In this document: positions 1,438 to 31,633 of the stretch, one piece after another | Position numbering within the stretch: the stretch's first letter is position 1 | How the letters are laid out: every line of letters starts with the position of its first letter | Origin: Synechococcus sp. PCC 7335 | GTDB taxonomy: Bacteria; Cyanobacteriota; Cyanobacteriia; Phormidesmidales; Phormidesmidaceae | Assembly: GCF_000155595.1 (NCBI RefSeq) | Contig: NZ_DS989904.1 | Span: 4,271,987 to 4,335,986, forward strand | Direction: 5' to 3' | Length of the DNA stretch: 64,000 nt | Notes under the pieces: generated by a model | The model's input: the letters and a program-made list of their open reading frames with translations, nothing else | What the model was told of the DNA's origin: nothing | Databases searched by the model: none | Program-made: the position numbers and the translations under genes

Positions 1438-3033
1438 ATGAAAGCCTTCTTGGTTGAGCACACTCTTCGCTATCTGCCGCTGACAATGGTGACTCTACTA
1501 AGTGCTGCTATGTCAGCGCACTCTGCTGAAGTAGTGGCCGGCCCAACCGGAACCCAGTTTACGCTCAATCAACTACCTAGCGGCAACTATCGATTCTGTA
1601 GCAAAAAGCCAGATGAAGTAGGCCAAGCGATGGGTGCTTGCTTCCGGTTTAGAAAGGAGGCAGAAAACATTGTTGGCACCTACTACTACCCCAATACAGG
1701 ATCGAGTATTTGTTTAAGAGGACAGATCAATAACAACACTTTTAGCGGTCAGGCAATTGAGCGGTTTTCAACAGGAGAATCACCTCCAGCAGACTTCTCT
1801 CGTCCGCAGCTATCTAACTGGGATGTAGATTTCTTGAAAGTAGGCAATGGTTTGTACGTAGATCGACTTGACCGGCGCGATGCCATCTTGTATCGCAGCG
1901 CCTTACTTAATCTGAACAACTTCTATCAATACAATGCAGGTAGCGTCTCACCGCCTACAACCTGTCCAACTCGGCCAAGCAGTATTGTCAGCGTCGCACC
2001 AGACTTTGACAATTTAAGAGAAGTTGGTACTTCTGAGTATTATGGCCAGCCTATCTATCTTGATTTTAGTAGTATCGAGCCTATCGCCTCTAGCACCTAT
2101 CGCTACACCACGCTTATCGGTAGACCTAATCGTCTCAGTGAGACCGAATATCAGGTGGACTGTCAAAGCTTAGAGAGCGTTCAAGTGCTGCGATCGCGCT
2201 ACTACGATCAAGACGGCGATCTTCAGGAGTTAGAACTAGTTGATAAAGCCGTTCCCGTCGATCAGACTAGCCCTTTTGCCTCGCAGCGCTACAATGCCAT
2301 CCAGCACGTTTGCCAAGAACACGCCCAGCTTGATATCGAACTTTCTAGAGACACCGATAGCTATGAACGCTATCGCAATCAACGCTTTGGCTACAGCCTA
2401 CTCTATCCTAGCGATGTTCTGATCCCACAAGGTGAGTTAGCTGATGGGTCAGGCCAGACATTCTTGAGTGCTGCAGGTGATGTTTTGGTGCGTGTCTATG
2501 GTGAAAGTAGCCAATCAGAGACGCTTGCCCAGCGATACGAACAGGCGCAGGTAGCTCAGCGGGTGACCTACCGAGCGATCAGCGATAACTTCTTTGTTGT
2601 TTCTGGTGTAGATAATGACAAAGTAGTCTATCGAAAAACGCTATTAGAAGACAACATCTTTAAAGTGTTAGAGATTGAGTTCGATCAAGCGCTGCAGCGA
2701 GAGTTTGAACCAGTGGCTCAGGCGATTGCAGATTCCTTTGCCCCGACCGTTCCTGATTCAGGCCTTCGCCAGCTCCCCGAAGCCGTCCAAACTGCAGTTC
2801 TAGAGCTTGCCGCTGCTAATACAGAAGCGGAATCCGCTGTGTTTGAAATTGTTTCTGTCGAGGAAGAAACTTGGTCTAACGGCTGTCTTGATTTGCCGCA
2901 GCCGGATGAAGTGTGTACGCTGGCACTTGTCCCTGGCTGGCGAGTAAAGGTCGCAGCCAATTTACCAGGTGGACTTATTCAATTCACCTATCGAACTGAT
3001 CAGACAGGCGATCGCATTCGTTTTGAGAATTAG
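1438..3033 (+). CDS. Secreted protein of unknown function
   Basis: I chose the ATG at 1438, not the in-frame GTG at 1387, because it begins a good Sec signal peptide: a short N-region, a hydrophobic core (LPLTMVTLLSAAM) and a likely cut after AHSA. The mature protein of about 500 residues is exported. The N-terminal third has paired Cys and short aromatic motifs (YRFCSKKP, GACFRFR). The last 65 residues contain WSNGCLDLPQPDEVCT and PGWRVKV followed by a YRTD motif, a module I associate with several exported cyanobacterial proteins but cannot name. Four Cys in that part could form disulphides. No enzymatic motif is visible. It converges with the DoxX-type gene downstream. Confidence 0.8.
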   Translation: MKAFLVEHTLRYLPLTMVTLLSAAMSAHSAEVVAGPTGTQFTLNQLPSGNYRFCSKKPDEVGQAMGACFRFRKEAENIVGTYYYPNTGSSICLRGQINNNTFSGQAIERFSTGESPPADFSRPQLSNWDVDFLKVGNGLYVDRLDRRDAILYRSALLNLNNFYQYNAGSVSPPTTCPTRPSSIVSVAPDFDNLREVGTSEYYGQPIYLDFSSIEPIASSTYRYTTLIGRPNRLSETEYQVDCQSLESVQVLRSRYYDQDGDLQELELVDKAVPVDQTSPFASQRYNAIQHVCQEHAQLDIELSRDTDSYERYRNQRFGYSLLYPSDVLIPQGELADGSGQTFLSAAGDVLVRVYGESSQSETLAQRYEQAQVAQRVTYRAISDNFFVVSGVDNDKVVYRKTLLEDNIFKVLEIEFDQALQREFEPVAQAIADSFAPTVPDSGLRQLPEAVQTAVLELAAANTEAESAVFEIVSVEEETWSNGCLDLPQPDEVCTLALVPGWRVKVAANLPGGLIQFTYRTDQTGDRIRFEN

Positions 3034-3110
3034 ACCTTCGCTGGCTTTTTCTCCAGTTGCAAGTTAGATCAGTCGCAAGCTAAACTCGCAACTTCTCCTA
3101 TACTCACAAG

Positions 3111-3545
3111 CTAGAGTGAAGATCGACTCTCTTTGTTGAATACTTTGTCGAAAAAATCTGTGTACCAAGCAGCCCAAGCAATCAGTACAAACTGAAACGG
3201 CAGCCGAAAGCCATGTAGCCACCAGCTATCTGGAATATTCTCAATCTTGATATGGTTGAAAGCCATATTCAGGTTGGCCGGATATACCGCTATAAAGAGA
3301 GCAACTAGACCCAGACCGGAGAGCGATCGCGTCGCTGGAACAATCAGGCCTATGCCAAAAATAATCTCAAAAACGCCGCTGATATATACCAACGCTGCTG
3401 GATACGGCATGAATCCTGGAACAATCTTGATAAAAGGATCTGGCGTAGCAAAGTGCAAAACCCCTGCTACCAGCATACAGACCGCCAATATGCCACGCAG
3501 CGTATCTTTGTTCTTTTGAAGGATTTCCTTGATGGCCTCGATCAT
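3111..3545 (-). CDS. DoxX-family integral membrane protein
   Basis: This is a 144-residue protein with four hydrophobic segments, roughly residues 18-36, 52-72, 78-98 and 118-136, separated by short loops. The spacing and the PGFMPYP and VYISGVFEIIFG motifs fit the DoxX/SURF4-like superfamily of small four-helix membrane proteins. Members are linked to quinone-related redox chemistry in some organisms, but the role here is unknown. The ATG at 3545 was chosen because it follows AGAGAAAG in the leader. An extension to 3632 exists but would encode a duplicated ECWIKE peptide derived from a short DNA tandem duplication (3554-3592), and it would overlap the upstream GH13 gene. The GH13 gene lies 74 bp upstream on the same strand, so the two may share a transcript. 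Confidence 0.8.
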   Translation of the reverse strand: MIEAIKEILQKNKDTLRGILAVCMLVAGVLHFATPDPFIKIVPGFMPYPAALVYISGVFEIIFGIGLIVPATRSLSGLGLVALFIAVYPANLNMAFNHIKIENIPDSWWLHGFRLPFQFVLIAWAAWYTDFFDKVFNKESRSSL

Positions 3546-3619
3546 TACTTTCTCTTTTATCCAACATTCAGATTCTTTTATCCAGCATTCAGGCTTGAGT
3601 TTTGATTCAGCGCAGCAGG

Positions 3620-5263
3620 CTAAGACGACCAAACCAGGACCTGTGCCTCATACTCTGGCAAATCCATCATGAGTCGACCGCCCTCAACCGTCACATCAAA
3701 GTTCTTTGTCCACTCGTGCCAGATTCCATCTTCAGGCAAGTTCTCCACTTGATAGCCTGCTAGAAAGTTGTCAGAACAGTTCACAATGACCGCGACTCTT
3801 GCTCCCATCTCATGCCAGCGCATGTATCCTATGACCTGCGTATCAGCATTTTCGTGGAAGATAGAGACATTGTCGGAACGTATCGCCGCATTCTCCTTTC
3901 TCAGTGCAATCAGTCCTTTGTAATACTTGAGCAGTCCAACATTGGGTTCACTATCTAGCAAGGACCAATCCAACGGCGCTGGGTCGAGCGTCTTGTGCTT
4001 ATAGGCGCCAAACTCCTCACCCATCCAGATCATCGGCACGCCCATCGCTGTCATCACTAGGGCAGCGCCAAGTTTGGCCCGCTTGAACGCTCCTTGTTCG
4101 AAAATCTCCATATCCGCTAGATTTGCCATCAAACGGTTTTGGTCGTGGCTAGTGAGATAGTTGATCACATTTTGGGCACTAAGAAAGCCCATTCTCTTTG
4201 GATCAATCAGCTCTTTCACTTTCTCAATCGCGGTGCCCTCTCCCTTCAAAATATCTAGGAAGTTGTAGTGAAAGCTAACTCTCCAGCTACTATCTACAGG
4301 ACCTTCTAGTCCACAGATGTCAGGTTTTTCTGGAATATGTTCAGCGCACGTAAATAGTGGCTTTGGCTTTGCTGCTAACCCTGCCTCATCCACAATCTGG
4401 CCGAGTACTTCTGGATTGTCTAACTGCTTGACCGCATCAAATCGTAGACCGTCAAACTGATATTCCGTGATCCAAAAGTTGACCATGTCCCGCATGAAAT
4501 CCCGAGCGGGGAACCGTTCGTAATTCTCGTCATAGTGGTCATAGTCAAACTCTGGACCCCAGCTCTGATCAGGATCTTTAGGATCTTTTCGATACCAATA
4601 GTTGTAGTCGATTTGGGTGAGCGGAGCCTCGGCTTCGGAATGGTTGAGAACGACATCGAGGATTAGCATAATACCGCGCGCATGACACTCATCGACTAGT
4701 CGCTTTAGATCGGCAGGCTTACCATAGCTTGAGCGCAGGGCAAAGTAGTGGCGCAGGTTGTAGCCCCAGCCAATTTCCATTGGACAAGACTGCACAGGCA
4801 TCAGCTCTAGAGCATTCACGCCGAGATCCTGGAGATAGTCGAGCCTATCGAGAATAGTGTGAAATGATCCTTCACCTTCCGTCTCAGTAAAATCTTGAAC
4901 CAACATTTCGTAGATCACCAGTTCATCTGGCTGAGGCAGTTCTACATCGTGATGCTGCCAGACATAGTCATCAATGATAATCTCGCCATCTTTGATACGA
5001 ATGACGCCCTGCTGATTAGATTCATCTACTTCAGTCGCGTAAGGATCAATCACGTACGTCCATTCGTCTGTATCTAGAAAAGGGCTCTGCGATTTTACAC
5101 GAAACTTATAAGCATACTGACCATCTGCTAGCTCAACCTTCGTTCGAAAGTAGCCATCCTCTCCCTTTTCCATCTCAGCGACTGAGTCCTCTAAGAAATC
5201 ACCAACAAGAGATGCCTTTGGGTTGTAAGGAGCCCAGAGCTTAAATTCGATGGGGTGCGTCAT
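3620..5263 (-). CDS. GH13 alpha-amylase-family enzyme with CBM48-like N-domain
   Basis: This is a 547-residue alpha-glucan-active enzyme. Residues 1-100 resemble a CBM48/isoamylase N-terminal domain (FKLWAPYNPKASLVGDF). The (beta/alpha)8 barrel follows, with all four GH13 signatures: DVVLNH (203-208), GLRFDAVKQ (272-280, nucleophile Asp276), CAEHIP (acid/base Glu308) and TSHD (372-374). A C-terminal beta domain ends the protein. It has no signal peptide, so it should act in the cytosol on glycogen or maltodextrin. The exact specificity (branching, debranching or hydrolysis) cannot be read from the motifs. The ATG at 5263 was chosen because homology begins immediately after it; upstream in-frame starts add a basic tail without family resemblance. 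Confidence 0.9.
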   Translation of the reverse strand: MTHPIEFKLWAPYNPKASLVGDFLEDSVAEMEKGEDGYFRTKVELADGQYAYKFRVKSQSPFLDTDEWTYVIDPYATEVDESNQQGVIRIKDGEIIIDDYVWQHHDVELPQPDELVIYEMLVQDFTETEGEGSFHTILDRLDYLQDLGVNALELMPVQSCPMEIGWGYNLRHYFALRSSYGKPADLKRLVDECHARGIMLILDVVLNHSEAEAPLTQIDYNYWYRKDPKDPDQSWGPEFDYDHYDENYERFPARDFMRDMVNFWITEYQFDGLRFDAVKQLDNPEVLGQIVDEAGLAAKPKPLFTCAEHIPEKPDICGLEGPVDSSWRVSFHYNFLDILKGEGTAIEKVKELIDPKRMGFLSAQNVINYLTSHDQNRLMANLADMEIFEQGAFKRAKLGAALVMTAMGVPMIWMGEEFGAYKHKTLDPAPLDWSLLDSEPNVGLLKYYKGLIALRKENAAIRSDNVSIFHENADTQVIGYMRWHEMGARVAVIVNCSDNFLAGYQVENLPEDGIWHEWTKNFDVTVEGGRLMMDLPEYEAQVLVWSS

Positions 5264-28912: not shown

Positions 28913-29893
28913 ATGACCTTCACTCAAGAACAGTACCTCTCTGGTAACGGTACCCAAACCGATGACCGAGTAGCCGTACTGCTGATGGGTTATGGCGAAG
29001 TCGAAAGCTACGAAGACTTTGCTAACTACAACGAACAAGCCCTTAACCTATTAACGGCCAAATTTGCGCCTGTTCCAACCTGGATTTACCCCCCTTTGGC
29101 TAAGCTATTAGCTATCTTCGACCTGCATGAGTGGAGCCATCAGCACGGCAACTTTGTCTCTCCTCACAACGCTATTTTTGAACAGCAAAGAACCGGGATC
29201 GAAACCTGCTTACAAAATCGCTGGGGCGATCGCGTCAAAGTCTTCAAAGCGTTCAACTTCTGTGCGCCTCACTTACCTGAGCAAGTGTTGGCAACCGTCA
29301 AGGCAGAAGGCTTCACAAAACTGCTGATCTATCCATTGTTAGTTGTAGATTCTATCTTTACCAGTGGTATTGCGGTAGAACAGGTTAACGACGCACTGAC
29401 TAAGCTAGCAGGAACAGGTGAGCACTGGTTAAAAGGAACTCGCTACATTCCCTCTTTCTACAACGAAGAGCGCTACATTAACCTGCTTGCAAACCTGGTC
29501 GAAGAAAAAATTGAGAAAGAGCTAGCAGTCGCCCACCTGCCTTCTCAAACAGGTATTATCTTGCTCAATCACGGCTGTCCTCACAAGGCGAAGGGCTTCA
29601 CCTCTGGGATTGATGAAAGCCAAAAGCTTTACGAGGCCGTTCGTGAAAAGCTAATACGCAAGTATCCTCTGATCTCAATTGGTTGGATGAACCACGACAC
29701 TCCCCTGATCGATTGGACCCAACCTAATATGGCAACGGCAGGTCAAAACATTATTGACTTAGGTGCCACAGCTTTAGTGATGATGCCAATTGGTTTTGCA
29801 ACCGAAAACCATGAGACGCTTCTAGATGTAGACCATATCATCCATAGCCTGCGCCGCAAAAATCCTCAGGTTACCTATGTTCAGATGGACTGA
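28913..29893 (+). CDS. Ferrochelatase-family (class II chelatase) protein, ended by an in-frame TGA
   Basis: The 326-residue open part has the ferrochelatase fold signatures: RVAVLLMGYGEVES at the N-terminus (matching the LLNLGGPE start of HemH), the His motif ILLNHGCPHK (equivalent of the catalytic SAH-x-x-P segment) and TENHETLLDVDHI (the HETL motif with the catalytic Glu). It may insert Fe or another metal into a tetrapyrrole, but it is divergent, so the substrate is open. The normal HemH C-terminal motif (LNdxPeFi) comes only after the stop codon, as VNDHPEFL, in the same frame. The start could also be the GTG at 28835 (26 more residues); the ATG has AGGA 12 bases upstream. Confidence 0.85.
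   Translation: MTFTQEQYLSGNGTQTDDRVAVLLMGYGEVESYEDFANYNEQALNLLTAKFAPVPTWIYPPLAKLLAIFDLHEWSHQHGNFVSPHNAIFEQQRTGIETCLQNRWGDRVKVFKAFNFCAPHLPEQVLATVKAEGFTKLLIYPLLVVDSIFTSGIAVEQVNDALTKLAGTGEHWLKGTRYIPSFYNEERYINLLANLVEEKIEKELAVAHLPSQTGIILLNHGCPHKAKGFTSGIDESQKLYEAVREKLIRKYPLISIGWMNHDTPLIDWTQPNMATAGQNIIDLGATALVMMPIGFATENHETLLDVDHIIHSLRRKNPQVTYVQMD
29891..29893 (+). other. In-frame TGA within a conserved region
   Basis: This codon separates TYVQMD from VNDHPEFLQM. The downstream residues match the ferrochelatase C-terminal motif, so the stop lies inside the family domain, not at its end. One base change would give Cys (TGC/TGT) or Trp (TGG). A selenocysteine codon, readthrough, a recent mutation or a sequencing error are all possible. 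Confidence 0.7.
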
Positions 29894-30226
29894 GTTAATG
29901 ACCACCCTGAGTTTTTGCAGATGGTCGCAGATTGGGCGGATTCAGAGATTCAGGCTCTGCTAGAAGCTGCGCCGCTAAGCGTCAATCCAGCTCTCAAGCA
30001 GGAAAGTGCTGAGCATACCCATCACGGTCATAGTCACCACAGCCACGGACATCACAGCCACGGGCACCATAGCCACCAACGTCATGACCACAGTTCCAAT
30101 GAACATAACCATAGTCACAATCATGACAGCCATAACCACGAACATGGCTCGCACAGTGAAAACGTCAACCCCGATCCTGAAGTAGCGTCTGCGGGGAGAG
30201 CAACCGTGCACGGCCACCCTCACTAG
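29894..30226 (+). CDS. In-frame continuation of the ferrochelatase-family protein: conserved C-terminus plus His-rich tail
   Basis: This is 110 codons in the same frame as the upstream gene with no further stop. Residues 1-25 (VNDHPEFLQMVADWADSEIQ) complete the chelatase C-terminus. They are followed by a tail of about 60 residues with more than 25 His in HSHHSHGHH-type runs mixed with Asp, Asn and Glu, ending VHGHPH. His-rich tails on chelatases and nickel or cobalt chaperones hold metal. If translated separately it would have to start at TTG 29915 or ATG 29921, neither with a good ribosome-binding site, which favours joint translation with the upstream part or a broken gene. Confidence 0.6.
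   Translation, partial: VNDHPEFLQMVADWADSEIQALLEAAPLSVNPALKQESAEHTHHGHSHHSHGHHSHGHHSHQRHDHSSNEHNHSHNHDSHNHEHGSHSENVNPDPEVASAGRATVHGHPH
29899..29927 (+). promoter_or_regulatory. SECIS-like hairpin just after the in-frame TGA
   Basis: GACCA (29900-29904) pairs with TGGTC (29922-29926), and CTG (29907-29909) with CAG (29918-29920). A small CC/A bulge lies between them and a T.G pair closes the outside. The 8-nt loop AGTTTTTG has G in its second position and begins 16 nt after the TGA. Those two features match the published bacterial SECIS pattern. A chance hairpin is possible. Confidence 0.35.
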
Positions 30227-30289
30227 CCGCTAAAATTCACTATCCTGTAGAGAGACTTCTATTTAGAGATATCTACTTTCTCTACATTC

Positions 30290-31633
30290 ATGCGCCTGTC
30301 CCTTTCTCGTCCGATGAAACGTCCGCTGCCTTGGTTAATGGGGCTAGGATTAGTTGGCTTGATAGGGGCAGGCGTAGTGGCATTTTCTGTAGCCAGGCGA
30401 GGGCCTAGCTACGATGTTGAGGCACTGACGGTACCAGTCGTAGCTAGCGAGCTCACGGTGCGGATTACGGCTAGTGGTAGCGTAGAGCCCATACGAACGG
30501 TGAACGTCAGTCCAAAGTCGGCAGGTATTGTAGAAAAGCTCTTTGTTGAACAGGGCGATCGCGTCACGGCAGGTCAGTTAATTGCCCAAATGGATCGCGA
30601 ACAAGTCGAGGCTCAGATGATTCAGAACCAGGCTGGTGTAGCCGAAGCTAGAGCCCAGCTTGAAGATGCACTCAACGGTGCCTCGGATACCGATATTGCC
30701 CAAGCAGAAGCGGCACTAGAGTCGGCCCGGGCTCAGCTACGAGAGGCTCAAGCGCGATTAGAATTGGCAGAAGAAGATCGCGATCGCACTCAAAGTTTGT
30801 TCGAACGAGGGGCCGTTTCGAGAAGTGCTCTAGACTTAGATGTCAGTGAGAGCCGAAGTGCGGCAGCGACTGTAGAGCAACTGGCTGCTCGGGTCAACGA
30901 AGCCGAGCAACGACTAATCGATCAGCAAAATGGTAGCGACGCAGAAGCCATTGCTCAAGCTGAAGCTCGGTTACTCAGAGCACAAGGACAGTTGCAGGGA
31001 ATGCAATCTCAGCTAGCGGATACTAACATTCGAGCACCGTTCGCAGGCATTGTCACTCAGAGATTTGCTTCAGAAGGGGCTTTTGTGACACCGACAGCAA
31101 CAGCTTCAGAAGTAACTTCGGCGACATCGACCGCGATTGTAGCCATTGCCAGCGGTTTAGAAGTCATTGCCGAAGTGCCTGAAGCAGATATTGGCCGTAT
31201 TCAGGTTGGTCAACCTGTTGAGATTCAAGCAGATGCCTTTCTAGGAGAGATTTTTGAGGGTGAAGTCAAACTCATCGCACCAGAGGCGATTGAGAGGCGG
31301 AACGTAACAGTTTTTCAGGTGAAAGTCAGCATACTCACTGGTACAGATCAATTGCGATCAAACATGAATACGACTGTTTCTTTCATTGGAAACAGGTTAG
31401 ATGATGCGATAGTTATTCCAGCTGTTGCTGTCATTACCCAAGCAGGTGAAACAGGTGTGCTAGTGCCGGATAGCTCAGATAGTACGCAGTTTGTACCCGT
31501 TGTTCTAGGGACTCAAGCAGGGGATCGAATTCAGGTTGTCGAGGGACTCGATGTCGGCGATCGCGTTTTTATCGATCTACCCCCTGGTCAAAGCTTAGAT
31601 AACTTGACCTTTGGCCGCAATCGGAGCGAATAA
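30290..31633 (+). CDS. Membrane-fusion (HlyD/MacA-type) periplasmic adaptor of an efflux system
   Basis: This 447-residue protein has an N-terminal membrane anchor (LMGLGLVGLIGAGVVAF) and a split lipoyl domain (GIVEKLFVEQGDRVTAGQLI and TNIRAPFAGIVTQR). Between them is an alpha-helical coiled coil of around 140 residues rich in Ala, Glu, Gln and Arg, and a beta-barrel plus membrane-proximal domain follows. It bridges an inner-membrane ABC or RND pump to an outer-membrane channel. No pump gene adjoins it; a MacB-type permease and ATPase pair lies at 54685-56719 and lacks an adaptor. Normal family length. Confidence 0.93.
   Translation: MRLSLSRPMKRPLPWLMGLGLVGLIGAGVVAFSVARRGPSYDVEALTVPVVASELTVRITASGSVEPIRTVNVSPKSAGIVEKLFVEQGDRVTAGQLIAQMDREQVEAQMIQNQAGVAEARAQLEDALNGASDTDIAQAEAALESARAQLREAQARLELAEEDRDRTQSLFERGAVSRSALDLDVSESRSAAATVEQLAARVNEAEQRLIDQQNGSDAEAIAQAEARLLRAQGQLQGMQSQLADTNIRAPFAGIVTQRFASEGAFVTPTATASEVTSATSTAIVAIASGLEVIAEVPEADIGRIQVGQPVEIQADAFLGEIFEGEVKLIAPEAIERRNVTVFQVKVSILTGTDQLRSNMNTTVSFIGNRLDDAIVIPAVAVITQAGETGVLVPDSSDSTQFVPVVLGTQAGDRIQVVEGLDVGDRVFIDLPPGQSLDNLTFGRNRSE

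Follow-up and report, generated by a model that had tools for sequence, protein, structure and literature searches.

An in-frame TGA at an otherwise invariant cysteine position interrupts a histidine-tailed ferrochelatase paralogue in Synechococcus sp. PCC 7335

In the assembled sequence, a ferrochelatase-family gene spanning positions 28913-30226 of the window (the whole 64,000-nucleotide stretch that was analysed) carries an in-frame TGA at a position where all other compared copies covering it encode Cys. This is most likely an ordinary one-off Cys-to-stop lesion, either a nonsense mutation or a sequence error. On balance we favour the former, namely a recent and real single-base change from Cys to TGA, probably leaving a loss-of-function or reduced-function allele of an accessory paralogue that is tolerated through the canonical ferrochelatase HemH. 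Functional readthrough is unlikely, and selenocysteine is very unlikely.

The frame opens with an ATG at 28913, runs to ...NPQVTYVQMD, meets the TGA, continues as VNDHPEFLQMVADWA... and ends at the TAG at 30224-30226 (Table 1). The 110 codons that stay open after the TGA supply the missing end of the domain and a His-rich tail, in which 26 His fall within the last 73 residues. The original prediction was right about this open frame and tail, but not about its length, which it had counted as 15 + 85 codons. From base composition alone, an open run of 110 codons has a chance of ~0.004; it is nevertheless homology that settles the reality of the frame, since both the Cys and the continuing frame were found in 80 of the 80 loci of the genome-contig search.

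Table 1. Parts of the interrupted gene, in window coordinates.
Feature	Position	Strand	Remarks
PF00762 paralogue part upstream of TGA	28913..29893	+	326 codons plus TGA
TGA at otherwise-Cys position	29891..29893	+	Cys in every other compared copy covering the position
Gene remainder beyond TGA	29894..30226	+	~37 residues of domain end and 73-residue tail, then TAG

The part upstream of the TGA retains the His and Glu motifs (NHGCPHKAKGF and ATENHETLLDVDH) and lacks the end of the domain. PF00762 matches it at 1.7e-30 (106.6 bits) over profile positions 2-285 of 317. As the reference for the closest comparison we used the intact, 98% identical copy of the nearest named relative, Cf. Phormidesmis sp. 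LEGE 11477 (locus L003), which matches over positions 2-314 of 317 with 128 bits, indicating that the stop removes the domain end together with the His-rich tail. In a genome-wide PF00762 search the window copy scored 124.1 bits, with "1 TGA" within a 463-aa frame; it is thus above the cut-off of 27 bits both truncated and read through. Frame, homology and profile score therefore agree with the earlier reading of the site as a single ferrochelatase-family gene cut by a TGA within a conserved domain. Two separate genes were rejected as an explanation: the copies of relatives run through, and scans of the part beyond the TGA gave no Pfam or NCBIfam family at E <= 0.001.

We aligned homologues at the TGA, as the original prediction had proposed, using 110 loci composed of the best 80 of 214 relatives and 30 from a second genome search; one of them is cut off by a contig end before the TGA position. 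Cys was observed in 108 of the 109 loci covering the position, although these are not 108 independent species, since the two locus sets overlap in organisms. The sole exception is the window's own TGA copy. The codon is TGC in 60 loci and TGT in 34; for the 14 reverse-strand rows the reading is at residue level. A second query gave Cys in 80 of 80, 28 of 30 and 29 of 30 loci (the last set being the best 30 loci of the class search); the loci without it are the window's own copy, which occurs in two of the sets, and one cut-off locus. The Cys is followed by the N-D/E-...-F motif in all 80 loci, 68 by a strict pattern scan and 12 more by alignment; homologues ending before this motif, a result named in advance as telling against the prediction, did not appear among them. 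His-rich tails were found in 68 of 68 copies from the strict scan.

Judged from these sequences, the Cys is invariant within the compared paralogue group, which lends weight to a changed Cys codon, one of the causes listed at the outset. It is not general to ferrochelatases: in an alignment of L003 with the ferrochelatase of Bacillus subtilis it faces a Met, so that the statement of the original prediction that many HemH proteins have a Cys here was not confirmed. Together, the window gene and loci L003-L082 make up a group of cyanobacterial ferrochelatase paralogues whose Cys ahead of the N-D/E motif is invariant and whose His-rich tail changes fast. On a contig of Okeania hirsuta (L025), the later part of the gene occurs twice in tandem (3001-4080 and 4356-5075); both copies have the Cys and identical tails in the compared sequence, as a result of duplication or of an assembly effect.

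We also compared constraint on the two sides of the stop. In the comparison with L003, ~17 of the differences in the 30 codons that follow the stop are synonymous and 0 nonsynonymous, and the 300 codons before it have a dS of ~1.05 and a dN of 0.014. If constraint on the remainder had been absent over more than ~8% of the branch leading to the window copy (a rough estimate, in which half of dS is assumed on each branch), the probability of zero nonsynonymous changes would be below 0.05. The lesion would therefore be recent, or else a base error. An old pseudogene was rejected on this evidence, and old decay of the gene appears unlikely from the sequence, in keeping with the initial view that there had been no long-standing decay.

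It should be noted that the clean signal comes from one relative, L003. With L004-L008 as the reference, nonsynonymous changes in these 30 codons number 7.0 to 11.2 (dN 0.107-0.177), and dN after the stop is 1.7 to 3.5 times that of the 300 codons before it (0.043-0.077). Since L003 is identical to the window there, these changes predate the split between the two and are uninformative on the stop. Moreover, the signal is confined to the first 30 codons: from about codon 32 after the stop the tails of the window copy and L003 diverge, with 7.5 nonsynonymous differences over 38 codons, and they differ in length (110 and 121 residues, respectively). Constraint on the remainder is equally expected under a base error or readthrough, so that it does not tell a fresh mutation apart from either.

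The first of these, an assembly base error in a real gene that has the Cys and is intact, was rightly among the causes listed in the original prediction, and we keep it as a serious rival, if a less than probable one. An otherwise invariant position, a lack of decay in the first 30 codons after the TGA and a lone stop are together the pattern expected from a single wrong base. Indeed, over the ~44.4 kb of the window that was matched to ORFs of relatives, the TGA is the only stop in a well-aligned gene. It was seen with seven queries; the second remaining stop (19314) faces a gap in the weak match of a single query. This comparison kept the dominant frame, many stops seen before that step having been put down to shadow frames or to sequence past the ends of genes. 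It drew its ORFs from 24 selected loci, comprising L003-L008, two of five stretches and 16 others (8 of 20 and 8 of 27 matches). Across its first ~12 kb, the window has no matching stretch of over 150 bases on the one contig of genome G002 with which it was compared. Against a base error, no frameshift was flagged within the matched ~44.4 kb, although small frameshifted segments may have escaped notice; errors thus do not seem to be frequent locally, and nothing specific marks the base at 29891-29893 as wrong.

The reading favoured in the original prediction was a Cys-to-Sec exchange, with selenocysteine inserted at the TGA in place of Cys. The TGA does align with an otherwise invariant Cys (108/109), as is looked for in selenoproteins, but any Cys-to-stop change gives the same alignment. 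The suggested search for selA, selB, selC and selD found only the last: selD scored above its cut-off, in an 807-aa frame. The gene for tRNA 2-selenouridine synthase, ybbB, is also present above its cut-off, which gives selD another use. Passages of PMC1273633 describe cyanobacterial selD with an N-terminal NADH-dehydrogenase-like extension, and report ybbB from species that have selD but do not decode Sec, cyanobacteria among them.

In contrast to selD, the other components were not recovered from the genome. A whole-genome search (completeness 95.25%) gave no match to selA. None of the ten matches to selB exceeded the cut-off; the best, which is presumably EF-Tu, reached 186.2 of the required 242.25 bits over profile positions 1-264 of 581, in a 415-aa frame. 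Likewise, none of the eight matches to tRNA-Sec passed the gathering score, and ARAGORN called them as ordinary tRNAs (tRNA-Leu, Ser, Gly, Ser, Tyr, Ser, Lys and Trp). Among 14 control genomes, the cut-offs were passed in 1 for selA, 2 for selB and 5 for tRNA-Sec. At a completeness of 95.25% a missing Sec gene is conceivable, yet selA, selB and selC would all have to be missed.

Nor does the RNA favour selenocysteine. The 61 bases around and after the TGA have no exceptional fold (z -0.20; equalled or bettered by 77 of 200 shuffles), as judged by general folding rather than a SECIS-specific model, and Rfam gave no family at E <= 1 on 29700-30300. Among the matches listed in a literature search combining ferrochelatase with selenocysteine or selenoprotein, no Sec-containing ferrochelatase was visible. 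On the results for selA, selB, tRNA-Sec and the fold, selenocysteine at the TGA was rejected, and we regard it as barely credible.

UGA can in general be read leakily by tRNA-Trp, and a tRNA-Trp with anticodon CCA is present in the genome. A real stop that is usefully read through by this near-cognate tRNA, or by another, so that some full-length protein is made, would agree with the conservation of the first part of the remainder. Against this, RF2 is intact (prfB at 481.8 bits, cut-off 370), the RNA around the TGA shows no folding advantage over shuffled sequences and no Rfam match, and no other compared copy has a stop at this position, which argues against a conserved readthrough site. Thus, we consider such readthrough improbable. 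Even less probable is a real, lineage-specific site of UGA readthrough by which a ferrochelatase-like metal chelatase is produced in two versions; were this true, a short form lacking the His-rich tail would be accompanied by a minor full-length form in which another residue replaces the conserved Cys. Reassignment of UGA or a suppressor tRNA was rejected, prfB being intact and no UCA anticodon being present among the 36 listed tRNAs, from a search that scored 150 of 251 first-look candidates and is therefore not exhaustive.

An intact canonical HemH lies elsewhere in the genome, at G000:C1:48331-49284 (387 aa), scoring 401.5 bits with PF00762 and, above the cut-off, 409.7 bits with TIGR00109, the hemH equivalog. 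Its EVWNGR fits the CAB motif EXXNXR given in a passage of PMC8529089. The interrupted gene shares 25% identity with this HemH, and TIGR00109 scores 71.7 bits on it and 85.2 bits on L003, below the cut-off of 124.6; on these grounds it is a distinct paralogue. A search of the genome for a second intact copy of it found none, the only other match being HemH. The presence of an intact HemH means that the interrupted paralogue may be dispensable.

Under the nonsense reading that we favour, this one genome would have acquired the TGA recently, through a single-base change of an otherwise invariant Cys codon that took place in the organism itself. Translation would then end at the TGA, yielding a 326-residue protein without the domain end and without the His-rich tail, which presumably fails in its function. 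The gene would be a new allele, with lost or reduced function, of an accessory, His-tailed and CAB-less ferrochelatase paralogue, and its loss would be tolerated because the canonical HemH suffices to make haem. This account supposes that the base is real.

The wide retention of the gene runs against the favoured reading. Using its second part as a query (165 residues, Cys included), we found a match at E <= 1e-40 in 175 of the 291 genomes sampled in the class, which suggests that losing the gene usually costs something. The search gave 178 matches by addition of rows; among the 150 matches listed, 148 have no stop, one is the window TGA and one is a TAA in genome G030, which belongs to another family of the class. 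The TAA falls in locus L129 (G030:C1:471837-472763), in the middle of the gene, where the sequence is variable, between ...DQKLA and AYLPSQ...; this locus keeps the Cys, and the rest of the aligned frame is intact. This interruption is independent of the window TGA and adds nothing to the selenoprotein reading. Sporadic interruptions of independent origin agree with a gene that is normally retained yet open to loss, or else with occasional base errors. In the second genome search, stops also occur in two short fragment rows (G036 and G021) and in HemH-paralogue rows of G028, G015 and G005. The latter three have no stop from residue 1 to 350/351 when aligned with the window genome's own HemH, and their stops are accordingly taken to precede the gene start.

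Beyond annotation the lesion matters little: the gene should be flagged as interrupted, neither as a selenoprotein nor as two genes. Should the base be real, the strain would be a naturally occurring mutant that has lost the tail of a cyanobacterial ferrochelatase paralogue on which little work exists, and it could be of use in learning the roles of the His-rich tail and of the conserved Cys.

Concerning family membership, none of the NCBIfam cut-offs was passed by the two members scanned, the window copy and L003. The Glu of ferrochelatase has a catalytic role. Both the catalytic His and Glu positions are kept when L003 is aligned with the B. subtilis ferrochelatase (2h1v, E 1.4e-5), and the window copy has the same motifs; the catalytic role of the His is described in a passage of PMC8529089. 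The gene belongs to the same Pfam family as the canonical cyanobacterial HemH with its CAB domain, but differs from it in having a His tail instead of the CAB motif, in addition to its low identity and TIGR00109 score.

A closer likeness is found in the CAB-less, histidine-rich subset of cyanobacterial ferrochelatases which, in the part of PMC8529089 that treats it, is presented as not previously identified or studied. The ferrochelatase domain, the cyanobacterial origin and the His-rich C-terminal tail are shared, whereas the window copy stops before the domain end; the likeness is one of description. His-tailed cyanobacterial ferrochelatases are thus already in print, on the evidence of that part, and the paralogue is known but little studied. 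Moreover, CbiX-type sirohydrochlorin chelatases include a long form with a C-terminal His-rich region, according to a passage of PMC5816740, which also names a conserved Cys motif for CbiX. The window gene resembles this form in its His-rich C-terminus and in a weak PF01903 (CbiX) score of 20 bits (cut-off 22; 23.8 for L003, with no stretch passing alone), but PF00762 is by far the better match to both. Finally, ordinary recent nonsense alleles, or early pseudogenes, likewise show one stop, in one lineage, with the remainder intact; the sole difference here is that the lost residue happens to be a Cys, either codon of which is one base from TGA.
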